DNA from: a virus
DNA: 64,000 nt
Strand: one strand, 5' to 3'
IMG/VR virus record: IMGVR_UViG_3300046558_000178
Coordinates: 1-64,000 of that record
Both the position numbers and the translations under genes were made by a program. Numbering within the stretch: the stretch's first letter is position 1; each line of letters starts with the position of its first letter. Of this stretch, positions 1,224 through 27,889 are shown piece after piece. The notes beneath the pieces are model-generated. The model ran no database searches and was not told the DNA's origin. It saw nothing but the letters and a program-made list of their open reading frames with translations.

Positions 1224-1300
1224 CGGGGCGTAGCGCAGCCTGGTAGCGTACTTGCATGGGGTGCAAGGGGTCGGAAGTTCGAATCTTCTCGCCCCGACCA
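1224..1300 (+). tRNA. tRNA-Pro(GGG), likely attachment site of the prophage
   Basis: This is a 77-nt cloverleaf with the 7-bp acceptor stem CGGGGCG/CGCCCCG, encoded CCA at 1298-1300, anticodon stem CTTGC/GCAAG and loop ATGGGGT, giving anticodon GGG. The T loop is GTTCGAATC. The sequence changes from host-type to phage-type genes directly after it, which is typical of tyrosine-recombinase integration into a tRNA 3' end. Confidence 0.95.
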
Positions 1301-1317
1301 GACAAATCAAAGACTTA

Positions 1318-6571: not shown

Positions 6572-6823
6572 TCATGTGACCTCCTTTGCGGCTGCCCGCC
6601 TAACCCTGTCCCACGTTTTCTGGTTCATCAGCAGCACGGCGCCGCCGTTCAGACTGATGACTTGGCCGTCGGGAACGGTCTCCCAGTAGCCGAAGAAATC
6701 AGCCATCCACGCATTTGTCTTAGCGACCAGTTCAGGGTCTTGTATCCGCGCAAACTCAGGGCTGCACTGCATGCGTGGGCGCGCGGGCGAGATCTGGACC
6801 TTTGCCCCGAAGATTGAGGTCAT
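6572..6823 (-). CDS. Small phage protein of unknown function
   Basis: 83 residues, soluble. It contains WMADFFGYWETVPDGQVISL and a C-terminal basic helix WDRVRRAAAKEV. No known domain recognised. The start overlaps the stop of the DUF551 gene by 4 bp. Confidence 0.6.
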   Translation of the reverse strand: MTSIFGAKVQISPARPRMQCSPEFARIQDPELVAKTNAWMADFFGYWETVPDGQVISLNGGAVLLMNQKTWDRVRRAAAKEVT

Positions 6824-7233
6824 GCTGCCCTCCGCTTCGGCGCCGCCGGCAGGTCCATCCAGGCCACAACCAGCGCCGATTCGATTGGCGTTGCATCGGC
6901 GTATCGCCAGACATCACCGTCACGGACGCCGGGCCACACTTCCTCATCCGAGAGCGCGAGCAGCACCAGGATATCGTCGTCCGGGAGGCGGTCGGCGACA
7001 GATGTCCAGCCGGTGGGCACCGAGCTGCGCAAGTCAGCGGTGGTGCCAATGCCGTCCAGCGCTTCGATTTCTTCCGTGGTCATGCCTATGCAGGCATTCC
7101 AGCACGCGGCTAGGCGTCGGGCGTCATCCCTCCTCATGCTAGCGGCGACAATCATGCCCTTTGCACTGTTGATGTCGCAAGAATACTGCCAGACGGTCAC
7201 ATGCAGCCGCCCCTGGGTGTGCTGGCCGCTCAT
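6820..7233 (-). CDS. DUF551-family phage protein
   Basis: 137 residues from ATG 7233. The C-terminal half has the DUF551 pattern: GWTSVADRLPDDDILVLLAL and the closing VVAWMDLPA. DUF551 proteins are common in phage early regions and have no established function. The N-terminal half (HVTVWQYSCDINSAKG, RRDDARRLAACWNACIG) is a separate short conserved segment. Start overlaps the rdgC stop (ATGA). Confidence 0.7.
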   Translation of the reverse strand: MSGQHTQGRLHVTVWQYSCDINSAKGMIVAASMRRDDARRLAACWNACIGMTTEEIEALDGIGTTADLRSSVPTGWTSVADRLPDDDILVLLALSDEEVWPGVRDGDVWRYADATPIESALVVAWMDLPAAPKRRAA

Positions 7234-8498
7234 GATGCCGCTCCCGGCGCCGCCGCCATGTTGCGCACGCCCTTGGTCATCGCCGGCGCAGCGCTGTCCT
7301 CGCTTGCTTCTTCCATGTTGACGTAGGCGGCCAGCAGATGCATCTGGCGGTTGGTGTCGTATGTTGCCGTGCACAAGCTTGTTAAGGCACCCAGGTCGCT
7401 TACGCCGAGCTTGGCTGCTTCTGACTTGATCTCAGCACCCAGTTCGGCCATGCGGCCAGCGAATTTATCGCCGAGGAGCGTCTGGGCGGCCGTATGCGCC
7501 TCGTACATCTTGGCTGCCACTTCCACCGTCCGGCGCGCTTTGCCGACGGTGCCGCCCAGTGCCAGCACCGTTTCGCCGCGTGTTGCGGGCGCAGGCTTCG
7601 CAACCGGTGCCGCGCCGTCCACCTCGCCACCCATCGCCTGCACCACATCAGCCAGCATCTTCGCCAGCTCGCCGGTCATCAGCGCAAAGTCGCCGTCGAA
7701 GCGCTCGTCGTCGTTGCGGGCGCTCTTGTTTTCCGTCAGCACGTCCAGCGCCCTGATCGACTTGATGGCCAGCGACTCGTCCAGCACAAAGCTGATCTTC
7801 GATTCCCAGGTCATCGCCAGGCGCGTGCACTGCTTGCCGGCGGCGATGTGTCGGCGTACGTCGTCCGCTTCCAGTGTGTGGCGCACGTACTTGACCTGGG
7901 CGCGGCTTTCGCCGGTGGCGCGCATGGTCGCATCGCGGTCGACCGTGAAGCCGGCCGGGGACTCGTCTGCTTGCAGCCATTCGGTCATCACACCCACCGG
8001 TGATCGCTGCACGCGCAGGCTTTCCAGCGGCATGCGGTCGACCGCCTTCAGCAGCAGCTTGATTACTTCATCGGCCTTACCCGGGCTGGCAGCGTCTACG
8101 ACCAACCAGCCGTTGATCGGGTCGATCCAGACGGCCGTAGTGCTGGCGACGGAAAACGCCTTCGGCAGCAGTTCATCTGCTACGCGCTCGCGCAGTTCCT
8201 TCATGGCCTTCTTGCCGGGCGCGAAGCCTTGCGCTTCTTCCAGCTCGGCGCCGCGGGCCTTAGCCACCTGGTTGATAACGGTGGCGGGCAGCAGCTTCTT
8301 TTCGGTCTGAAGCTGAAGCAGCCATTGGCGGTTGACTACGTGGACCAGGTCGGCGCCGCGCGGTGCGGCCCAGCCTTGGCGCAACAGTTCGTTGCTGCTG
8401 GCGGGCGTGAAGGCGTGCGGCGCCAGGGCGGCGATCATCTGCTCGGCGGAAAACGCCCAGCCGGCGGGCACGCGGTATATTTGAGCGTTTTTGAACAT
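7230..8498 (-). CDS. rdgC: RdgC-family recombination-associated protein with C-terminal extension
   Basis: 422 residues. Residues 1-300 match RdgC: the start MFKNAQIYRVPAGWAFSAEQ, then LAPHAFTPASSNELLRQGW, and the segment YVRHTLEADDVRRHIAAGKQ. RdgC forms a ring-shaped dimer that binds DNA and restrains RecA filaments. Canonical RdgC is about 300 residues; here ~120 more follow, with an Ala/Pro linker and then a helical segment VEVAAKMYEAHTAAQTLLGD of unknown role. Present in the leftward operon directly after the DGR, where it may act on recombination or cDNA intermediates (inference). Confidence 0.85.
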   Translation of the reverse strand: MFKNAQIYRVPAGWAFSAEQMIAALAPHAFTPASSNELLRQGWAAPRGADLVHVVNRQWLLQLQTEKKLLPATVINQVAKARGAELEEAQGFAPGKKAMKELRERVADELLPKAFSVASTTAVWIDPINGWLVVDAASPGKADEVIKLLLKAVDRMPLESLRVQRSPVGVMTEWLQADESPAGFTVDRDATMRATGESRAQVKYVRHTLEADDVRRHIAAGKQCTRLAMTWESKISFVLDESLAIKSIRALDVLTENKSARNDDERFDGDFALMTGELAKMLADVVQAMGGEVDGAAPVAKPAPATRGETVLALGGTVGKARRTVEVAAKMYEAHTAAQTLLGDKFAGRMAELGAEIKSEAAKLGVSDLGALTSLCTATYDTNRQMHLLAAYVNMEEASEDSAAPAMTKGVRNMAAAPGAAS

Positions 8499-9230: not shown

Positions 9231-10214
9231 TTATTTGGTGGCAGATCTGATGGATGGTCCGGTATGGCTGAACATTGCTTTGTAGGAGGAGAGCGCCTGG
9301 CTGCGGTCATACCCGCCGACCTCATGCTGGCGCAGGCGCTGGTGGTACCGCCGCCGGCCGTAGGCGCCGACGGAGACATGGTTTGGCCAGACGACGTAGC
9401 CGAGGAAGGGCACGCCGTCGGACACCGGTGCCAGGCGCACCTTTTTCGGATGGATGGTCAGACCGTCGGCTGCCAGGCGCTCGACGATTGCGGCACTGAT
9501 CGCCATCAGCTGCTCGCGGGATTCGCCCACGATCACCATGTCGTCCACGTACCGGACGTAGTGGCGAACGCGCAGCACTTCCTTCACCCAATGGTCGAAA
9601 TCGTTCAAGTAGACGTTTGCGAAAAGCTGGCTGCTCAAGTTTCCGATGGGCATCCCCTTGTCCCGGGTGCGCCGATAGACGCTCGTGGCCGGGAATAAGT
9701 GATCATGCTCATCGCCCGACCGGAACGAGTCCACCAGGCTCACCAACAGCGTGCGGATGTCCTGGTCGCCGATGTAGCGCAGGACCCGCGCCTTCAAGAG
9801 AGAATGATTCACCGAATAGAAATACTTCGAAATGTCCAGCTGCAATACCCACTTCGCATCCCGCGCGCGGGCGAAGCCGGCCACCCGGCGCACCGCAGCG
9901 TGCGTGCCGCGGCCCGGCAGGTTGCCGTATGTGTCCGCGATAAAGCGCGGCTGCCAGATTGGCAGCATGTAGTCGTAAAGCATCCAGTGGACGATTCGGT
10001 CCTTCATCGGCGCATCCACGACGTGGCGGAACTTCTTCTCGCGCACCACGAACGTCTTGTACGGCCCGAAGGTGTACCGGCGTTCGCGCAGCTGCTGCTG
10101 GATGCTGGCAAGGTAGCGGAGTGGATCGTCGCCGAAGCGCTGCACGCGCGGGCTCTTGGACTTGTTTTTCCTGGCTTTCAGCCAGCAGCCGAACAGGCTG
10201 GACAGGTCGGTCAT
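9231..10214 (-). CDS. DGR reverse transcriptase
   Basis: 327 residues from ATG 10214. Group-II-like reverse transcriptase: VLQLDISKYFYSVNH (first catalytic Asp, residue 127), GMPIGNLSSQLFANVYLNDF at 187-206 (the DGR-type IGxxxSQ motif) and YVDDM at 222-226 (catalytic Asp pair). DGR RTs copy the template RNA with errors at adenines and deliver the cDNA to the variable repeats. The frame is open back to 10526 through the template repeat, but the conserved protein starts at 10214. No strong Shine-Dalgarno site. Confidence 0.95.
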   Translation of the reverse strand: MTDLSSLFGCWLKARKNKSKSPRVQRFGDDPLRYLASIQQQLRERRYTFGPYKTFVVREKKFRHVVDAPMKDRIVHWMLYDYMLPIWQPRFIADTYGNLPGRGTHAAVRRVAGFARARDAKWVLQLDISKYFYSVNHSLLKARVLRYIGDQDIRTLLVSLVDSFRSGDEHDHLFPATSVYRRTRDKGMPIGNLSSQLFANVYLNDFDHWVKEVLRVRHYVRYVDDMVIVGESREQLMAISAAIVERLAADGLTIHPKKVRLAPVSDGVPFLGYVVWPNHVSVGAYGRRRYHQRLRQHEVGGYDRSQALSSYKAMFSHTGPSIRSATK

Positions 10215-10246
10215 GCGGTGGAACTGTGCTGGCGCTGGGCCGCTTT

Positions 10247-10276
10247 CCGCTGCGGCACTCGGAAGCCCCGCAGCGG
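10247..10276 (-). promoter_or_regulatory. Structured RNA hairpin between DGR template and RT gene
   Basis: Perfect 9-bp inverted repeat CCGCTGCGG/CCGCAGCGG with a 12-nt loop, 108 bp downstream of the template repeat in the transcribed direction. It sits where the Bordetella DGR has the spacer RNA needed for cDNA priming. Two copies of GGCCCAGCGCCA (coding strand) flank it. Confidence 0.55.
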
Positions 10277-10384
10277 TCTTCGGTTTGGCGCTGGGCCGTG
10301 CTTTCGGGTTTATCCCAGGAGCTGATCGACCAAGAATTGGCTTTCCGTGAGCGGGCTCAGCGTCTAAGCATATAATTTTTGGGT

Positions 10385-10499
10385 CAGCGGAAGCCGACAT
10401 TGTCGTTGGCGTTGGACGGATTCGCGTTGTTGAGCCTGAACACGCCGGCGTTGTCGCCGTCGTTCCAGTAGCCGCCGCGGATGAGCGCATTGCCGGACC
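10385..10499 (-). repeat. DGR template repeat (TR)
   Basis: 115 bp aligning without gaps to both variable repeats. On the transcribed strand it has nine AAC/AAT codons; every difference from VR1 (12) and VR2 (13) is at one of those adenines. Immediately past its 3' end the TR reads TGACCC where both VRs read TGCACC, the expected IMH*/IMH difference that makes transfer one-way. Confidence 0.96.
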
Positions 10500-10522
10500 T
10501 ACCAGACCACCCCCTTCGTTGA

Positions 10523-11377
10523 TCATGATGCTGCCTTTCCGGCGCGCAGCAGGCCGCCGACCAGGCGGCCAAGCTCAACGGCTAAGCCAGCGCGATGGTC
10601 GAACGCAAGTTTGAGCTTGCTTAGCCGTGGAGCCTGGGTCAGGTAGTGCTTGAGCAGATCGATGTCGGCCGAGATGGAGTGCAGCACCGCCCGGCGGTCC
10701 GCCGCTGTCCCGTAGGCGTAGACGTTGCCCATGACACGTGCCATGCACGCGCGCACGTTCTCGCCGAAGGTGGCGCGCAGGTCGCGTGGCATCTTGATGA
10801 TGTCGTGCAGCAGCTGCGTGTCCAGGTCCTGGGCTTGTGTCTTCAGCTTAAAGCCGGCGCTGTCGGGGTTGGCCAGCATCTGTTTCGTCGCAGCCTGGTT
10901 GACCTCACCTCGGGCTCGCAGGTCTGCGATCACTTGCTGAACAATTTTGTCGGAGACTGCATTGAGCACTGAAGCATTGGCGCCGGCCTGGTCGGAAACG
11001 TAAAGCGTGTAGCCTTCGGCGCGGCTGCCGAGGTAGACCACGTACGGAATCTGGAATTCTTCCACCATGGACCACAGCCGCTTTTTGAAATTCCCGGCGG
11101 GGAAGCCCACGCGAATGTGTGGCGCGTCGCTGGTATTGACCAGTTTCAGCTGGTAGCCCTTGAGGGTATTGAGTGCGTGCGCGGTGCGATCGTAGCCGTG
11201 CAGGAAGCGGCCGACTTGCACCAGTACGAGGTGGCCGGGATGCTTCTGCTCCAGCTGGGCCGAGACGTCGGCCATCGGATCTTCCTGGCCAAGGCCGACC
11301 TCGATTCCACGATATGCGCGAATCGAGAACTGGCCCATCTCGGCCTGTGTCGGCACTTGCGATTCGGTTTTCGGCAT
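10523..11377 (-). CDS. avd: DGR accessory protein: MutS-domain-I-like domain fused to Avd four-helix bundle
   Basis: 284 residues. Residues ~48-125 resemble the MutS mismatch-recognition domain I (HLVLVQVGRFLHGYD, with the conserved Phe of GDFYELF; then VGFPAGNFKKRL and QIPYVVYLG). Residues ~180-284 match Avd, the pentameric helical protein that binds DGR RTs (LLHDIIKMPRDLRATFGENV ... LGRLVGGLLRAG). Both domains are in one uninterrupted frame. Avd is essential for mutagenic reverse transcription in Bordetella phage. The MutS-like half may read mismatches or guide the cDNA (inference). It lies between the variable target gene and the TR. Confidence 0.8.
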   Translation of the reverse strand: MPKTESQVPTQAEMGQFSIRAYRGIEVGLGQEDPMADVSAQLEQKHPGHLVLVQVGRFLHGYDRTAHALNTLKGYQLKLVNTSDAPHIRVGFPAGNFKKRLWSMVEEFQIPYVVYLGSRAEGYTLYVSDQAGANASVLNAVSDKIVQQVIADLRARGEVNQAATKQMLANPDSAGFKLKTQAQDLDTQLLHDIIKMPRDLRATFGENVRACMARVMGNVYAYGTAADRRAVLHSISADIDLLKHYLTQAPRLSKLKLAFDHRAGLAVELGRLVGGLLRAGKAAS

Positions 11378-11406
11378 TTTCGTCCTGCCTATTCAATATT
11401 GAGAGG

Positions 11407-11433
11407 CCCGGTCACCGCTGCGCAGTGACCGGG
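11407..11433 (-). promoter_or_regulatory. Hairpin downstream of VR1 (DGR target-recognition element)
   Basis: Perfect 9-bp inverted repeat CCCGGTCAC/GTGACCGGG with a 9-nt loop, 40 bp past the VR1 end and beyond the stop codon. DGR homing needs such hairpins or cruciforms near the VR. The same place after VR2 has a related hairpin with a compensating base-pair change. Confidence 0.65.
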
Positions 11434-11457
11434 AACCAGTGACCTGGGACCAGAGAC

Positions 11458-12228
11458 CTACAGGGGTTTGGTGCAGCGGAAGCCGACAAGGTCGTAGGCG
11501 TAGGACGGAGACGCGTGGTCGAGCCTGAACACGCCGGCGTAGTCGCCGTCGCCCCAGTAGCCGCCGCGGATGAGCGCAGTGCCGGACCAGTTGGCGCCGG
11601 CACGAGGCCGCCAGCCCATGCCACGTTCCATGGACGCATACGGCGCCGTGGCGATCGACGGCGAGTCGGCGGCAAAGGCCTGCGAGATCAGGCCATTGGC
11701 GTCGCCCTGGACGTCATCGAAGACCCAGGTAAAGGCGTTGCCTGCAGCGTCCACCACGGTCTGGTCGTCATCCAGGTAGAAGGCGCGGCGCTCGGAAGGG
11801 TCACGTGAAACGAAATCGCCGGCGTACGGTTCATCAACGTCGTCCAGGTCGAGGCGCAGGCCTTGGAACATGCTGCCCTCGCCGACGATTCCACTGACCC
11901 AGTTCGCCCGCTGCAGGAACAAGTTGAACGCCAGCGACAGCGCCTGGGTCTCGGTGATCAGCGCGAAGCCGGCATCGGCGCAGGCCTGGCGCGCATCGGA
12001 GTAGTTGATATCGACCCAGGGCTTGCCGGTGGCGCTTACAACAGCTTTGCCGTCTGCACCCTCCGAGCACAGGTACTGGCCGGCTTGGAAGGCTGGTACG
12101 ACAATGCTCGGGCGCGTAACCACGCCTCCGACAATCACGCACGGCAGCGTGGTTTCGGGCACGGTGACGAACAGGTTTTTCTCGATTTCCGCTACTGCGT
12201 GCTGCTCGGTATGGGTTGCTGTGTTCAT
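11458..12228 (-). CDS. DGR variable protein 2 (C-type-lectin/FGE-like fold)
   Basis: 256 residues. The C-terminus GMGWRPRAGANWSG, then RGGYWGDGD, ends VGFRCTKPL: the formylglycine-generating-enzyme-type C-type lectin fold used by DGR targets. VR1 covers the last ~40 codons and sets nine exposed residues (T, G, Y, D, H, S, Y, Y, L where the template gives Asn). It lacks the ~65-residue N-terminal extension of its paralogue. It should bind a variable ligand; location is unknown because it is not in the tail module. Confidence 0.88.
   Translation of the reverse strand: MNTATHTEQHAVAEIEKNLFVTVPETTLPCVIVGGVVTRPSIVVPAFQAGQYLCSEGADGKAVVSATGKPWVDINYSDARQACADAGFALITETQALSLAFNLFLQRANWVSGIVGEGSMFQGLRLDLDDVDEPYAGDFVSRDPSERRAFYLDDDQTVVDAAGNAFTWVFDDVQGDANGLISQAFAADSPSIATAPYASMERGMGWRPRAGANWSGTALIRGGYWGDGDYAGVFRLDHASPSYAYDLVGFRCTKPL
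11474..11588 (-). repeat. DGR variable repeat VR1
   Basis: Aligns base for base to TR 10385-10499 with 12 substitutions, all opposite template adenines (for example AAC to GGC, AAT to CTT, AAC to TAC). No other change in 115 bp. Confidence 0.96.
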
Positions 12229-12321
12229 GATGCTCCTTGGATGGGTGTAAGGACTTCAACTTGCTGCTGGATCGAACTGCGGGCGAGGATCAGGGCGGCT
12301 CGCCTGTGTAATTCACTCGAA

Positions 12322-12525
12322 TCATTTCGGCTCCTTCGGCCTTGGCGCGCGCCGCGCGTCGGCCAGCATGCGGTCCGCGACAGCCTGCAGACGGTCGCGG
12401 TCTTCAACCGCCGATTCGTTGGCGCGAAAACTCTTGCTGGACCGCAGGCTGGACCTCGTTCGGCACTGGCGCACTGCAGCTCGATCCAGGCGTGCCAGTC
12501 GTTGTTCCTCGGTTTCGGTTTGCAT
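12322..12525 (-). CDS. Small charged phage protein (Rz-like composition)
   Basis: 67 residues rich in Arg/Glu/Ala (EEQRLARLDRAAVRQ ... DRDRLQAVADRMLAD), probably helical. A good Shine-Dalgarno site GGAGGG precedes ATG 12525. A competing frame open from 12647 to 12225 has natural-looking ends but a shadow-like middle, so the gene content of 12225-12650 is uncertain; an 11-codon ORF starts at 12325 with an ATGA overlap. Confidence 0.5.
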   Translation of the reverse strand: MQTETEEQRLARLDRAAVRQCRTRSSLRSSKSFRANESAVEDRDRLQAVADRMLADARRAPRPKEPK

Positions 12526-12627
12526 GCGCCCTCCGCAGCAATTTGGCGGCCCGCGCCGTAGCGCTGGCCAATCGGATTGAATGGCTGAATGTGTGGCCGG
12601 CGCACCAAGTGCTCCAGGCCGAGCGGA

Positions 12628-12771
12628 TTACGGATGCCATGCCGCATTCACTTCCTGCAGGGCGACCAGCACCTGCTGCTGCGCCTCGTCATCGCTGCGC
12701 GCGGCATCTACATAGAACAGCCCCAGCAGGCTAAAGGCGGCGAGGACGCGGATCCATGGGCGCCAGCTCAT
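12628..12771 (-). CDS. Small membrane or exported protein
   Basis: 47 residues: SWRPWIR, then hydrophobic VLAAFSLLGLFYVDAA, then a polar tail. This could be a signal peptide or an anchor. The ATG overlaps the stop of the gene upstream (ATGA at 12768-12771). It sits between the two DGR target genes; function unknown. Confidence 0.55.
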   Translation of the reverse strand: MSWRPWIRVLAAFSLLGLFYVDAARSDDEAQQQVLVALQEVNAAWHP

Positions 12772-12911
12772 GGCAGACTCGCGATGGCGGCGCCGACCAC
12801 ATCGGCCAGCCATTCAGCCAGCGCGAGCAGCAGCATCACGGCCGTGATCAGGACGCTGCCGTTGCGCTCGCACCAGCCGCCGCGCGCTCCGAACACGATC
12901 CGCGCGCTCAC
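12768..12911 (-). CDS. Small membrane protein with GTG start
   Basis: 47 residues. A basic N-terminus (SARIVFGARGGWCERNG) is followed by one hydrophobic span (VLITAVMLLLALAEWLADVV). The GTG start overlaps the upstream stop (GTGA) and its own stop overlaps the next ATG, so three short genes form a coupled chain between the DGR targets. Function unknown. Confidence 0.55.
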   Translation of the reverse strand: MSARIVFGARGGWCERNGSVLITAVMLLLALAEWLADVVGAAIASLP

Positions 12912-13138
12912 GACACAACTCCCGACCGGCCCGCCAACTGCATAGCGCCACAGCGGAAGTAGTCATCCGCGCGGTGAGCGCCTGCAGGCATTTGCTCCGG
13001 CGCGTCCAGGCTACCGTCGTTCAGGACGGATTCGAGTCCGCTGTCCTGGTAGCGGAAGTGCAGCTGGTCGCTTACACGCAACCGGGAGTTCCTTCCACCG
13101 GTGGCGAGGCGCAGCTTTGAAGCGTGGTTTGCGTGCAT
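12908..13138 (-). CDS. Small phage protein of unknown function
   Basis: 76 residues from the second ATG (13138; another lies at 13141). Basic N-terminus, polar middle, RADDYFRCGAMQLAGRS near the end. No family recognised. First gene after the small LGW-motif gene, in the cluster between DGR targets. Confidence 0.5.
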   Translation of the reverse strand: MHANHASKLRLATGGRNSRLRVSDQLHFRYQDSGLESVLNDGSLDAPEQMPAGAHRADDYFRCGAMQLAGRSGVVS

Positions 13139-13153
13139 CACGATCTCCTGGTG

Positions 13154-13303
13154 CTAACGTGAGCGAACATTGGGCGTGCCGATCAGGCCCCAGCCGAGCT
13201 GGCGGCGAACTTCTTCAGGCGCTGGTGGCGGCAGGCGGGACAGTAAGCGCTGCTTTGTCCAGATGCGGACTTGCTCTTTGGTTGGGTGATTAACTGTTGC
13301 CAT
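13154..13303 (-). CDS. Small phage protein with RRQLGW motif
   Basis: 49 residues. The motif PEEVRRQLGWGL near the C-terminus is shared with the 53-residue protein at 28583-28744 (DEIRRQLGWDL), so the two are related small proteins in the early and late regions. Role unknown. Confidence 0.55.
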   Translation of the reverse strand: MATVNHPTKEQVRIWTKQRLLSRLPPPAPEEVRRQLGWGLIGTPNVRSR

Positions 13304-13320
13304 GACTATCTCCAAGGAAT

Positions 13321-13341
13321 GGCCGCCGCTGCGCGGTGGCC
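13321..13341 (-). promoter_or_regulatory. Hairpin downstream of VR2 (DGR target-recognition element)
   Basis: Stem GGCCGCC/GGTGGCC around loop GCTGCGC on the plus strand. Relative to the VR1 hairpin the loop and position are conserved, and one pair changes from T-A to C-G. The sequence between hairpin and stop codon is also conserved (GAGACCTACAGGG). Confidence 0.6.
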
Positions 13342-13368
13342 GGTTACCCGTGACCTGGGGCCAGAGAC

Positions 13369-14268
13369 CTACAGGGTTTTGGTGCAGCGGAAGCCGACAA
13401 AGTCGACGGCGTAGGACGGAGTCGCGTAGCCGAGCCTGAACACGCCGGCGACGTCGCCGTCGTTCCAGTAGCCGCCGCGGATGAGCGCACCGCCGGACCA
13501 GTCGCGGGCCCCGTCAGGGCGCCAGCCCATGCCGAACTGGCCAGAGGCGTATGGGGCGACGATCAGGGATGGGGAGTCGTCAGCGAGGCGCGTGCACAGG
13601 CCATTGCTGTCGCCCTGGACGTCGTCGGAGGTCCAGGTGTAGATGTTGCCGGCTAGGCCGTAGACCTTTTCGCCGTTGGTCAGCACGTGCCAGCTGCGTT
13701 CTTCGGGATCATCACTCACGTAGTCAGCCGTCTGTGCGCTGCGCACCGTGCCCTTGTGCAGCCCCTGGAAGACCTTGCCGATGCCGACGGCGCCACCGGT
13801 CCAGTTTTCGGCCTGCTGGACTACATGCAGACGGATGGCAAGCTCCTGTGACTCGCGCGCCAGCTCGTAGCCGACCGCCGAGCACGCAGCTGCTGCAGCG
13901 TTGAAGTTCACGTTCACCCATGGCTTCGCCGAGGCGCTCAGCTGGAGCGCACCGTTATCGTCTTTCGACGCGGGGTACTTGGCGTATTTGAAGGCGGGAA
14001 CGATGCGACCATTCGGCAGCAACGTCTCAGGCACGGTGACGAAGTGCTCGTCGGAGACCAGGCCCAGGTTGGACATCAGCGAGGGCGATCCGGACACGAC
14101 GCGCTTCTCGGCGTCGAGAACGATCAGATGCAGGCCGGATGTGGCATGGCGGAACTTGGTGAAGCCCTCCCAGGCGCTTTCCACGGCCAGGCCGGTGATA
14201 TTGCGGTCGTTCAGGCGCGCAGTGAAGGTGCGCTCCTCGATCAGTTCCAGTGCTGCAGGTTGGTTCAT
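13369..14268 (-). CDS. DGR variable protein 1 (C-type-lectin/FGE-like fold, extended N-terminus)
   Basis: 299 residues from ATG 14268, which has GGAGA 6-7 bp upstream (an earlier ATG at 14280 is also possible). The C-terminal domain (FGMGWRPDGARDWSG, RGGYWNDGD, VGFRCTKTL) matches the paralogue at 11458. VR2 covers the last ~40 codons. An N-terminal region of ~65 extra residues (EERTFTARLNDRNITGLAVE) may attach the protein to a partner. It is the first gene after pL, so the whole DGR lies in the pL transcript. Confidence 0.88.
   Translation of the reverse strand: MNQPAALELIEERTFTARLNDRNITGLAVESAWEGFTKFRHATSGLHLIVLDAEKRVVSGSPSLMSNLGLVSDEHFVTVPETLLPNGRIVPAFKYAKYPASKDDNGALQLSASAKPWVNVNFNAAAAACSAVGYELARESQELAIRLHVVQQAENWTGGAVGIGKVFQGLHKGTVRSAQTADYVSDDPEERSWHVLTNGEKVYGLAGNIYTWTSDDVQGDSNGLCTRLADDSPSLIVAPYASGQFGMGWRPDGARDWSGGALIRGGYWNDGDVAGVFRLGYATPSYAVDFVGFRCTKTL
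13385..13499 (-). repeat. DGR variable repeat VR2
   Basis: Aligns without gaps to TR 10385-10499 with 13 substitutions, all at template adenines (AAT to GGT, AAC to GTC twice, AAC to GGC, AAT to TTT and others); one AAC codon is unchanged. Confidence 0.96.
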
Positions 14269-14306
14269 CGCTGTCTCCATCGGGTGATTGCTGCGTCGAT
14301 GAAGAT

Positions 14307-14335
14307 ATTAAACACCATGTTTAAAACTAATGCAA
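14307..14335 (-). promoter_or_regulatory. pL: leftward early promoter driving the DGR operon
   Basis: On the minus strand, -35 TTGCAT (14330-14335) and -10 TTTAAT (14307-14312) are 17 bp apart. Transcription would begin near 14300. Both elements overlap the operator pair 14308-14348. Confidence 0.75.
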
Positions 14336-14348
14336 ACACTATGTTTAA
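14308..14348. promoter_or_regulatory. OL operator pair (CI/Cro sites at pL)
   Basis: Two 17-bp imperfect palindromes, TTAAACACCATGTTTAA at 14308-14324 and GCAAACACTATGTTTAA at 14332-14348, with centres 24 bp apart. The second is identical (17/17), reversed, to the site at 15550-15566; the first differs by one base from the site at 15574-15590. They should bind the same repressors. Confidence 0.85.
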
Positions 14349-14386: not shown

Positions 14387-14411
14387 AAAAAAAAGCCCGC
14401 GCGAGGCGGGC
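14387..14411 (-). terminator. Intrinsic terminator after the cI transcript
   Basis: On the minus strand a 6-bp GC stem GCCCGC/GCGGGC with a 5-nt loop is followed by eight T. It ends leftward transcription from cI and the 14475 gene before pL. Confidence 0.85.
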
Positions 14412-14804: not shown

Positions 14805-15515
14805 TCATATACGATCTGATTCCTTGCGGACTACGCGGCCGACGATGATGCATTCTCCATTGCGGCACCGCTTGCGTGAGTACATGCGCTGGTCGGAGTT
14901 ATCCGAAACCAGCCACCAGTCTCCCTGGTCGCGTACCAGGCGCTTGATCACCGCCTCGCCCTCATAGTTGAACGCGTACACGGCGCCATCCTCCATACGC
15001 GTGTCAGCCGTGTTCACGATGACATGGTCGCCCTCGTAGAGGTTCGGCTCCATGCTTTCGCCTCTCACCGATAGGGCGATGAGCTTCGCAGGGTAGTAGC
15101 CGTTACGGTCCACCCAGTACTTCGGCACGCTTTGCCGGCCGCCCTCGCGGTTATCAGGGGAGGTTTGGAATCCGGTGATGCCGGCTTGCAGCTGCAGCTT
15201 CACTTTCTGGATTTGATAGAAACCAGGGTCGCCATCTTCCGCGACCACCACGGGGATGTAGTTGGCCAAGCCTGGCCCGACCATGTCGCCCACGCCATCG
15301 CGAAGCCAGATGGCATTGCACCCGATCACCTCCTGCGCGCTGAGCAACCCATCGCTGGAGATGCCGCGCACCTCCCAGTTGTTCACCGTCTGCGGAGACA
15401 CATTTAACAATTTGGCGACCGCACTTTGTCCTTCTGCATGGCGCAGCTCGGCAGCGGCCTGATAGAGGCGCGTCATTTGTGGGTGCATACCAACCCCATT
15501 CTCAGTATTTTTCAT
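14805..15515 (-). CDS. cI: CI-like repressor with S24 autoprotease domain
   Basis: 236 residues from ATG 15515 (GAGG just upstream). The N-terminal helix-turn-helix is AVAKLLNVSPQTVNNWEVRG. The C-terminal LexA/CI peptidase has the nucleophile Ser in VRGESMEPNLYEGDHVIVN and the general-base Lys in AVIKRLV. RecA-stimulated self-cleavage should trigger induction; an Ala-Gly in the linker (LQAGITG) could be the cut site. It should bind the five 17-bp sites at OL and OR and repress pL and pR. Confidence 0.9.
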   Translation of the reverse strand: MKNTENGVGMHPQMTRLYQAAAELRHAEGQSAVAKLLNVSPQTVNNWEVRGISSDGLLSAQEVIGCNAIWLRDGVGDMVGPGLANYIPVVVAEDGDPGFYQIQKVKLQLQAGITGFQTSPDNREGGRQSVPKYWVDRNGYYPAKLIALSVRGESMEPNLYEGDHVIVNTADTRMEDGAVYAFNYEGEAVIKRLVRDQGDWWLVSDNSDQRMYSRKRCRNGECIIVGRVVRKESDRI

Positions 15516-15534
15516 AGCCTCAATGATCCCTGAA

Positions 15535-15590
15535 CTAAACAAAATGTTGTTAAACATAGTGTTTGCGTTTTTCTTAAACATGGTGTGTAA
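15535..15590. promoter_or_regulatory. OR operators between cI and cro
   Basis: Three 17-bp sites: CTAAACAAAATGTTGTT (15535-15551, weakest), TTAAACATAGTGTTTGC (15550-15566) and TTAAACATGGTGTGTAA (15574-15590). The last two overlap the -35 and -10 of pR, with centres 24 bp apart, the same spacing as at pL. Confidence 0.85.
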
Positions 15591-24255: not shown

Positions 24256-24626
24256 CGGGCATCGCCTGGAGGAAACCCGGCGCCGCCAAGAAGAAGCCGA
24301 AATACGGCAACTCGAAGGTGACATTGAACGGCGAGAAATTCGATTCGCGGGCCGAACTGGCGCGCTACCAGGTGCTGCTCAAGCTGCAGCACGCTGGCGG
24401 AATCAGCCAGCTCACCCGTCAGGTGTCGTTCGTGCTGGCGCCGAAGGCAGTCGTGGGCGGCAAGCTGAAGCGCAGCCTGATCTACCGGGCCGACTTCCAG
24501 TACCGCGACCACGCGACCGGGCGCATGGTGGTGGAGGACGTGAAGGGGATGCTGACCGAGGCCTATAAGATTAAGCGGCACTTGATGAAGACCCTGCACG
24601 GCATCGACATCCTGGAGACGTCATGA
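24252..24626 (+). CDS. DUF1064-family phage nuclease-like protein
   Basis: 124 residues. KYGNSKVTLNGEKFDSRAEL, then RADFQYRDHATGRMVVEDVK, is the DUF1064 pattern, a restriction-endonuclease-like (PD-(D/E)XK-type) fold with acidic residues in the E...D...EDVK places. Probably processes phage DNA. Overlaps the integrase start by 4 bp. Confidence 0.75.
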   Translation: MTGIAWRKPGAAKKKPKYGNSKVTLNGEKFDSRAELARYQVLLKLQHAGGISQLTRQVSFVLAPKAVVGGKLKRSLIYRADFQYRDHATGRMVVEDVKGMLTEAYKIKRHLMKTLHGIDILETS

Positions 24627-25666
24627 GCGTGGACGTGTTCAAGCCTGGCAAGTCGAAGGTCTGGCATTACCGGTTCCAGGTGGGTGGCGTGCGCGTGCAG
24701 CGCAGCACGAAGTTGCGGGAGAAGGGCGCGGCCGAGAAGGTGGCCGAGCGGGCCTACTCGAACGCCGTAGAGCGCGCCAACGGCGGCAAGGTGATTCCGA
24801 CGCTGGGTGAACTCTTCGCCGAGTGGGAGCAAGTGCGCGCCCCGGTGGCCAGCGCGGCACACCGCAAGGCGGTGGATGTAGTGCGGCGTCTGCACATGTA
24901 CGACCTGGCCGACCTGCCGCTAAGCGCGCTTACCACCATCAGGATGGAGCGAGCCCGGAATCTGCACCTGCAGGATCACAAGCCCGCCTCCGTCAATCAC
25001 TGGCTGCGGGTTATGAAGTTGATGGTCAACTGGGCGGTGGCGCGTGAGATTTTGCCGCGTCTGCCGTGGAAGTTGGCATTGATGAAAGTCCAGAAGCGAC
25101 CACGCACCATTCTTCCGTTGGATGTGGCCATGGCGTGGTTCACCGAGGTCGACGCCGCCACTCCGCGTACACCATTTGTGGCCACTGCCATCCGGCTGAT
25201 GTTTGGCGCCGGCTTGCGCGAAAGCGAGGCGGCCAGTGCGCGATGGGAGTGGCTCGACTGGGAGCGTTGCACCTATACCCCTGGGGTGACCAAGGGCCGC
25301 GAAGCAGAACCTATCCCGCTGCCACAGTGGTTGCTCGACCACCTGACGCCGCGGCGCCAATCAGAGGGCTTGATCGCGCCGCGCGCTGATGGCACACAAC
25401 TACCGGCTGGGTTCGCGCGCAGCACCATGGTGATCGCGAACATGAAGTGCCGGACCAAGGGCATCACGCCACACCGCCTACGCGGCAGCTTCGCCACACT
25501 GCTCTCGGAGAATGGCGCGAACATTCAGACCATCCAGGCGGTGATGCGGCACAAGAGTCACACCACGACCATGACCTATTTGGAAAAGGACATGAGCAAG
25601 GTGTCTGCAGCCCAATCGAAAATAGCCGGAAAAATCGGGTTCGCAGGGCGAGAAAATGGCGAGTGA
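24623..25666 (+). CDS. int: Tyrosine-type site-specific integrase
   Basis: 347 residues. Catalytic set: Arg199 in GAGLRESEA, His284/Arg287 in PHRLR, His310 in MRHKSH and nucleophile Tyr319 in MTYLEK. An N-terminal SAM-like core-binding part precedes it. It would recombine attP with the tRNA-Pro site. Oddly, it is translationally coupled to DUF1064 at the end of the replication operon, over 23 kb from attL, so it should be made from pR during early lytic growth rather than beside xis. Confidence 0.93.
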   Translation: MSVDVFKPGKSKVWHYRFQVGGVRVQRSTKLREKGAAEKVAERAYSNAVERANGGKVIPTLGELFAEWEQVRAPVASAAHRKAVDVVRRLHMYDLADLPLSALTTIRMERARNLHLQDHKPASVNHWLRVMKLMVNWAVAREILPRLPWKLALMKVQKRPRTILPLDVAMAWFTEVDAATPRTPFVATAIRLMFGAGLRESEAASARWEWLDWERCTYTPGVTKGREAEPIPLPQWLLDHLTPRRQSEGLIAPRADGTQLPAGFARSTMVIANMKCRTKGITPHRLRGSFATLLSENGANIQTIQAVMRHKSHTTTMTYLEKDMSKVSAAQSKIAGKIGFAGRENGE

Positions 25667-26932: not shown

Positions 26933-26998
26933 CCGAAGAAGCTGGGGAGCAGATCGGAAAGGGCTTTTGTCCACACAATTTTGAGAAGAGGTGAACAA

Positions 26999-27889
26999 AT
27001 GAATGTTACAGGGACAGCAGCTGTAAATCAAGGCTTGGCGTTTGAGCACGTGAGCTTCCAAGTCGTCTTTCGTGACCAGCAACAATGGTTGATGTTGAGC
27101 CAGCTCGCCGAAGCGCTCTATGGTAAAAGGGGATCGCAAAACGCGACCCCCTTTGAATCGCGGGTGCGCGATCTGTATCGTCGTCATTCAGACGAGTTCT
27201 CGGACAAGATGACGGCACTGGTGGAGATGGCCACTGCCGGCGGCAAGCAAATGGTCCGCATATTTAGCCTGCGCGGCGCCCACCTTCTGGCCATGTTCGC
27301 GCGAACCGATGTGGCCAAGGCGTTCCGCCGGTGGGTGCTGGACTTGCTGGAACGCGAAGTAATGGGGCAGGCGGCCGCGCCGGATGACTGCTGCCCTGAT
27401 GCCCGCCAACAGCTGCAATGCGCCGTGCGCGCGCTGCAGTCCAAGATGACTTCCCATCAGGTCTACCGGCGCGTGCACCTGCAGTTCGGTGTGAACTCGA
27501 TCGACGACCTGGGCGCGCGGATGCCGCAGGCCGTGGCGTTCGTGAACGGCTTGGCCGCCAGCTGGGAACTGGTCGACCAGCCCGCGCTGCCCGCGCCAGC
27601 ACAAGGACTGAGCGCGCGAGACCTCGAGAACATGACTTGCCTGTGCAACGAGGTGGAATACGTGCGCAGCGCGTGGGGTGCCTATTGCCCACACCTGGAG
27701 GCTTTGACCCCGCTCATGGCCGGCCAGCTGGGCGAGCACATCCTCGGCGCAGCCGCTGCCGCGCGCCACCTGGTGCGCGATCACGACCTGCCGTCGGACC
27801 GCGAATACGCTGCCGGCTACCCTTGGCGCGGCAGCGACGTAGCCCGTCGCGCGTACGTGGACACCGCCCAAAACCAGCTCGCGAGCTGA
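26999..27889 (+). CDS. ant: Antirepressor (P22 Ant / phage_AR_N type)
   Basis: 296 residues from ATG 26999 (AAGAGGTG upstream). The N-terminal domain (WLMLSQLAEALYGKRGSQNA ... RRHSDEFSDKMT ... IFSLRGAHLLAMFARTDVAK) is the P22_AR_N antirepressor domain. The C-terminal ~170 residues are helical and specific. Ant should bind and inactivate the CI-type repressor of this or a superinfecting phage. Order mnt-like / arc / ant matches P22 immI. Confidence 0.82.
   Translation: MNVTGTAAVNQGLAFEHVSFQVVFRDQQQWLMLSQLAEALYGKRGSQNATPFESRVRDLYRRHSDEFSDKMTALVEMATAGGKQMVRIFSLRGAHLLAMFARTDVAKAFRRWVLDLLEREVMGQAAAPDDCCPDARQQLQCAVRALQSKMTSHQVYRRVHLQFGVNSIDDLGARMPQAVAFVNGLAASWELVDQPALPAPAQGLSARDLENMTCLCNEVEYVRSAWGAYCPHLEALTPLMAGQLGEHILGAAAAARHLVRDHDLPSDREYAAGYPWRGSDVARRAYVDTAQNQLAS

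Follow-up and report, generated by a model that had tools for sequence, protein, structure and literature searches.

What does a cassette for targeted hypermutation do beside the repressor of a phage? The question is raised by a diversity-generating retroelement (DGR) in a stretch of viral DNA of 64,000 nucleotides, positions 1 to 64,000 of the IMG/VR virus record IMGVR_UViG_3300046558_000178 (66,551 bp), which is referred to here as the window. One template, two targets, an intact reverse transcriptase (RT), and adenine-only substitutions confirm the element as a DGR. Our analysis indicates that it is very probably a genuine DGR situated in a phage early-left operon, with errors at adenines, two targets served by one template, and control by repressor operators. 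The cassette is read on the minus strand in the order target gene 2, three small open reading frames (ORFs), target gene 1, accessory gene, template repeat (TR), and RT, and both variable repeats (VRs) are located at the 3' ends of coding targets, as in other DGRs. The components are as follows.

13369-14280, minus strand: target gene 2, 303 amino acids, C-terminal VR, extra N-terminal segment of ~75 amino acids, FGE-sulfatase match E = 1e-4
13385-13499, minus strand: VR2, 13 substitutions, all at TR adenines
11458-12228, minus strand: target gene 1, 256 amino acids, C-terminal VR, PHROG 9572 sulfatase-modifying factor
11474-11588, minus strand: VR1, 12 substitutions, all at TR adenines
10523-11377, minus strand: accessory protein, 284 amino acids, N-terminal MutS-domain-I-like domain and C-terminal Avd
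10385-10499, minus strand: TR, 115 bp, 24 adenines, nine AAC/AAT codons, followed by GCTGACCC (IMH*-type, after the initiation of mutagenic homing element, IMH)
9231-10214, minus strand: DGR RT, 327 amino acids, RVT_1 E = 5e-25, PHROG 1423 E = 3e-101

The first-pass annotation, made from the letters of the window, had proposed a gapless alignment of the 115-bp TR with VR1 and VR2, 25 substitutions confined to template adenines in nine AAC/AAT codons, two RT motifs, and a 3' flank difference of the IMH*/IMH kind. Our recount agrees with it on each point. The alignment is gapless at the coordinates listed, and the 12 and 13 substitutions all fall at template A (24 A in 115), with hypergeometric P = 4.4e-10 for VR1 and 5.1e-11 for VR2. 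Reading by hand places all 25 within the nine AAC/AAT codons, which hold 18 A; the six A outside these codons are unchanged in the window, and some of them are mutated in relatives. The RT motifs are intact, with GMPIGNLSSQ at residue 187 and YVDDM at 222, and the DGR-type SQ motif and YxDD are each present in 53/54 family RT ORFs. Immediately 3' of the shared core stands GCTGACCC after the template and GCTGCACC after both VRs. This difference is conserved across the family: the relatives' templates that were compared have the same 3' end, except for a variant in L038 and the L034 entry, for which a hybrid copy was picked. No further TR/VR copy was found in the whole 66,551-bp record. The confinement of substitutions to template A ruled out that the repeats arose by chance or by simple duplication. 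A broader proposal is that the TR/VR similarity arose by gene duplication or recombination and not by retrohoming. The two target genes are indeed paralogues (49% identity), but VR1 and VR2 differ at 12 positions, every one a template-A site, and the pattern is repeated in 45 loci beside an RT. The A-restricted pattern already refutes this proposal, and its probability is negligible.

Relatives were collected to ask how the repeats change between phages. A tblastn search of the RT against viral contigs returned 46 close (64-94% identity) and 34 distant relatives, and six bacterial genomes were added through a search with the accessory protein. In tblastn searches, phage records yielded no match to target 2 or to the accessory protein, and plasmids none to the accessory protein; the named isolates therefore came from genome contigs alone. 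In 82 TR/VR pairs from 45 close family loci, 1358/1407 mismatches lie at template A. The near relatives are L004 and L005, whose templates are identical to the 115-bp template of the window, and L045, whose template has the single change A48>G. Comparison of VRs among related phages was a check suggested by the first-pass annotation, and it was made with the orthologous VRs of the window and these three loci. In 12 comparisons, 11-20 of the 24 template-A sites differ, none of the 91 other sites differ, and the remainder of the gene differs by 5-18%. Because no non-A site has changed while the gene bodies have diverged, the VRs appear to have been overwritten from the TR since divergence. Copying from one common template can leave all 91 sites unchanged in every one of the 12 comparisons; ordinary divergence cannot. 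These data are a signature of recent retrohoming in this lineage, and they lend comparative support to the earlier description of the element as active-looking.

One alternative is a real but dormant DGR, in which homing has ceased in this phage and the VR differences date from an earlier time. A point in its favor, and against our reading, is that VR change is known from comparison between phages and not from reads, experiment, or variation within a population. The RT frame of L045 (8001-8926) is also broken near residue 104 in the assembly, a break that could reflect decay of the RT or an error in sequencing. Dormancy is nevertheless unlikely given the absence of change at the 91 non-A sites beside gene bodies that differ by 5-18% and the intact RT motifs of the window. 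Both VRs of L045 also carry G at the A48>G site, which fits copying from the new template, although this inference is weakened by the occurrence of G at position 48 in the VRs of some relatives whose template has A.

The start of the DGR operon was also examined. In phage lambda, the divergent CI/Cro operators (PR/OR) are accompanied by a second operator set (PL/OL) that drives the leftward early operon starting downstream of cI. The corresponding region of the window contains these features.

15550-15590, plus strand: CI/Cro intergenic operator pair, the same sites and 24-bp spacing as at 14308-14348, inverted
14805-15581, minus strand: CI-type repressor (helix-turn-helix and S24 peptidase), Peptidase_S24 E = 1.6e-20, PHROG 4 E = 1e-39
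14395-14411, minus strand: intrinsic terminator-like stem, GCCCGCCTCGCGCGGGC plus T8, between the repressor unit and the DGR operon
14307-14348, minus strand: PL/OL-like promoter-operator with sites TTAAACATAGTGTTT (14334-14348) and TTAAACATGGTGTTTAA (14308-14324)
14335-14330 and 14312-14307, minus strand: proposed promoter, -35 TTGCAT, 17-nt spacer, -10 TTTAAT, hexamers placed by eye

Upstream of target gene 2, at a distance of 27 bp, stands a pair of operator-like sites spaced by 24 bp. The pair occurs just twice in the 66.5-kb record, before target gene 2 and, inverted, in the CI/Cro region. By eye, the hexamers TTGCAT-17-TTTAAT parallel the cro-side TTGCGT-17-TGTAAT. A lambda-type early-left operon is marked by a leftward promoter that has its own, second set of CI/Cro operators; the layout is that of lambda, the sequences are unrelated, and the operon here carries a DGR. 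The terminator-like stem stands immediately before the operator copy, and the DGR operon therefore probably begins at that copy. Because its promoter carries the second CI/Cro operator copy, the operon is predicted to stay off in lysogens and to be switched on when the prophage is induced or early in infection.

This arrangement was tested in the family. A first operator scan required palindromes and detected the window only; later scans relaxed this requirement and included controls. Targets and repressors were located in 16 phages by whole-record searches, with the G005 repressor recognized by eye from sequence. The operator pair was taken from the CI/Cro region of each phage, and a second copy was accepted at ≤6 mismatches of 28. 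A second copy was found in 13/16 phages compared to 0/48 shuffles, and in all 13 the first left-arm DGR target is separated from the repressor by an inverted copy, which is about 30 bp to about 11 kb away from that target. Several unrelated operator sequences are represented, each matching its own CI/Cro intergenic region. The operator sequences thus differ among phages, which indicates that the arrangement is kept while immunity types change.

Several observations weigh against this account. A strict sigma-70 scan calls no promoter at the operators, and CI binding to the operator copy is deduced from sequence. Two of the 16 relatives (G006 and G008) have no detectable copy at the cut-off, and one phage is borderline at 7 mismatches, a score also reached by 5/48 shuffles. 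In two phages, the copy lies ~10-11 kb from the first target, making a single shared transcript uncertain. The absence of a promoter call and the sequence-based case for CI binding would also suit the idea that the repeated sites serve a different regulator or recur by chance. We consider that idea very unlikely, because several unrelated operator types match their own CI/Cro regions and no shuffle reaches the cut-off. Control of the DGR operon by the phage repressor is the reading carried forward.

The nature of the diversified proteins was examined next. The first-pass annotation had described two C-type-lectin-fold genes sharing one template. The shared template and the two targets stand; a C-type-lectin (FGE) fold is probable, though short of proof. 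The target family profile matches FGE structures at E = 0.002 and the DGR variable protein TaqVP at E = 0.015, and the predicted model of target 2 is poor over the VR region and gave no convincing fold match. The targets could be ordinary virion adhesins, like Mtd of BPP-1, with the operator copy just marking the place where the cassette landed. We rate this explanation only slightly below an even chance. Viral DGR targets with a predicted function are mostly tail proteins (PMC8144416), the fold family resembles other DGR ligand binders, and no signal peptide was seen in the targets by eye. The genomic setting argues the other way. The packaging, head, and tail genes (terminase to J) occupy 31-59 kb on the plus strand and no VR lies near the tail genes; a search for spread targets using the phage J family was informative just for the window and G011. 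The main targets in the 16 records are on the repressor's strand and on its left-arm side, and in 13 phages, which represent several immunity types, the operator copy separates the repressor from the DGR. The remote targets of two relatives also adjoin the repressor; these extra targets have 18/18 (G004) and 23/23 (G005) substitutions at A. One extra target in G012 has 20/22 substitutions at A.

The first-pass annotation had no name for the accessory gene (10523-11377), the hairpins that follow the VRs, or the operon start at a repressor-operator copy. The C-terminal half of the accessory protein matches Avd (NF033474 E = 1.5e-6, residues 181-277; PHROG 3206), and it is this domain only that corresponds to the Avd expected of a DGR. 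Pfam MutS_I is detected in 14/31 orthologues with a best E = 3.9e-4, and the window protein alone does not reach E = 1. The predicted model (mean predicted local distance difference test score 75.5, predicted template modeling (TM) score 0.48) was searched with Foldseek; the N-terminal part resembles MutS (E 1.5e-3), and the C-terminal part resembles the DGR Avd chains 8ub8/4dwl (TM ~0.8 by target length). The fusion is present in 52 accessory ORFs across family loci. The 34 distant DGR loci have no N-domain, and where an accessory was detected, it is a lone Avd-sized ORF of 115-154 amino acids. Judged by these profile and model matches, the accessory protein is a MutS_I-Avd fusion conserved in the clade. 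The E-values are modest, but the two halves and the two methods (hidden Markov model and fold) agree. Counting against this assignment, the NF033474 and MutS_I scores on single sequences are under the curated cut-offs. The accessory sequence profile gave chance-level matches only against the PDB, among them MutS at E = 1.9 with its GDFYE aligned over GKFLH. The apparent F-x-E to F/W-L-H change is a lead, not a result. In PMC10053308, MSL (MutS-like) is named among the known DGR accessories and attributed to PF01624 (MutS_I). The N-terminal domain described here belongs to the same PF01624 family and differs in being covalently fused to Avd. A speculative role for the MutS-like half is the binding of heteroduplex DNA or of DNA with mismatches. 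The accessory gene varies within the family. In L034 (5574-7827), it is duplicated in tandem with a TR/VR hybrid between the copies; the hybrid (6644-6757) has the TR sequence but is followed by a VR-type IMH and hairpin, as if VR and TR had undergone unequal crossing-over, unless the assembly is at fault. In a subgroup comprising L022, L030, L033, L037, L042, and L046, the accessory protein is shorter (about 262-267 amino acids), and several members have longer TR-RT spacing.

A hairpin follows each VR of the window.

11407-11433, minus strand: hairpin 3' of VR1, CCCGGTCACTGC-GCA-GCGGTGACCGGG
13321-13341, minus strand: hairpin 3' of VR2, GGCCACCGC-GCA-GCGGCGGCC

Folded singly, these two hairpins are unremarkable. 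The family comparison reveals a GC-rich hairpin 20-40 nt beyond the VR end, scoring above the 95th percentile of random segments in 64% of VR flanks and 0% of TR flanks. The 9-bp stem, aligned over 35 distinct hairpins, has 96.5% of cells paired, and 7/9 pairs have changes on both sides, which is covariation. Pairing as high was reached in 0/500 shuffles, and all slid controls were exceeded. A looser hairpin count with 35% background was set aside in favor of the flank-percentile and covariation tests. Described phage DGR hairpins have stems of 7-10 bp and GRNA tetraloops (PMC3240598). The stem found here agrees with that description and has strong covariation, but the loop differs, being usually a GNA triloop and sometimes GTNA.

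These components suggest how the cassette may work. Loss of the repressor or early infection would turn on the leftward operon through the putative operator control. By analogy with known DGRs, the RT would associate with the Avd part of the accessory fusion and copy the TR-containing transcript with errors at adenines. The cDNA would then replace the 3' end of either target gene, and replacement would be directed by the VR-only 3' element (GCTGCACC in place of GCTGACCC) together with the hairpin downstream of each VR. It is conceivable, and we offer it tentatively, that the DGR of this clade diversifies early, non-virion proteins from repressor-controlled promoters, for example in counter-defence or superinfection exclusion, and not receptor-binding proteins of the tail, with the MutS_I domain of the fusion acting like a mismatch reader that aids the survival or pairing of mutated cDNA.

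The wider setting is that of a prophage.

1256-1305, plus strand: attL core, 50 bp, overlapping the 3' end of tRNA-Pro, with an identical attR copy at record 65857-65906
1423-1623: AlpA-like gene, near attL
7230-8498, minus strand: RdgC, PF04381 E = 7e-104, in the same leftward gene row as the DGR

Since the 50-bp repeat at tRNA-Pro is present at both ends, the virus is apparently a complete prophage of ~64.6 kb integrated at tRNA-Pro with host flanks present. The DGR lies on the arm opposite the structural genes, between the CI-type repressor and the AlpA-like gene. In many relatives RdgC is a neighbor of the DGR, which may connect homing with recombination. The integrase gene (24623-25666, plus strand) is mid-prophage, ~23 kb from attL and ~40 kb from attR, and only the AlpA-like gene is near attL. 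An antirepressor-like gene (26981-27889, plus strand; PHROG 5060, E = 3e-31) is a candidate second input to the lysis-lysogeny switch.

The DGR itself, two targets per template, and repressor-linked DGR activity are already known. The BPP-1 DGR (mtd-avd-TR-brt) shares the order target-accessory-TR-RT, the A-specific differences, the VR at the target 3' end, the IMH-type end difference, and a GC-rich hairpin 3' of the VR (PMC3240598). The present system differs from BPP-1 in its RT (the best matches among phage records are <60% identical, about 31-36% among the matches listed), its MutS_I-Avd fusion in place of a lone Avd, its loops (mostly GNA triloops or GTNA compared to BPP-1-type GRNA tetraloops), its two targets, and its site in the early-left operon away from the tail genes. 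Silencing of a CI-like repressor is reported to induce DGR activity in the Bacteroides hankyphage (PMC12135933), likewise a prophage DGR with repressor-linked activity. Hankyphage is Mu-like, transposable, and diversifies a tail fibre, whereas here a duplicated operator stands directly at the DGR operon. The nd4/nd12 phage DGRs have one template and two C-lectin targets, and ~13% of DGR cassettes have two targets (PMC10743442); the present case differs in that both VRs are C-terminal and in its phage type and genome location. No description of a DGR clade in an early-left operon behind copied repressor operators was found in the open-access literature searched, and the regulatory niche of this DGR appears to be new.

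Phage DGRs are usually read as tail-fibre diversifiers. In this clade the targets are found repeatedly behind copied operators, with the repressor on one side and the remainder of the early-left arm on the other. Such placement suggests that the lysis-lysogeny switch sets the timing of hypermutation, and it prompts the question of what role an early hypervariable protein plays. The MutS_I-Avd fusion offers a testable link between DGRs and mismatch recognition. The cultured carriers Duganella sp. BJB476, in whose prophage the cassette is arranged in the same way, and Solimicrobium silvestre S20-91 open the family to laboratory study.

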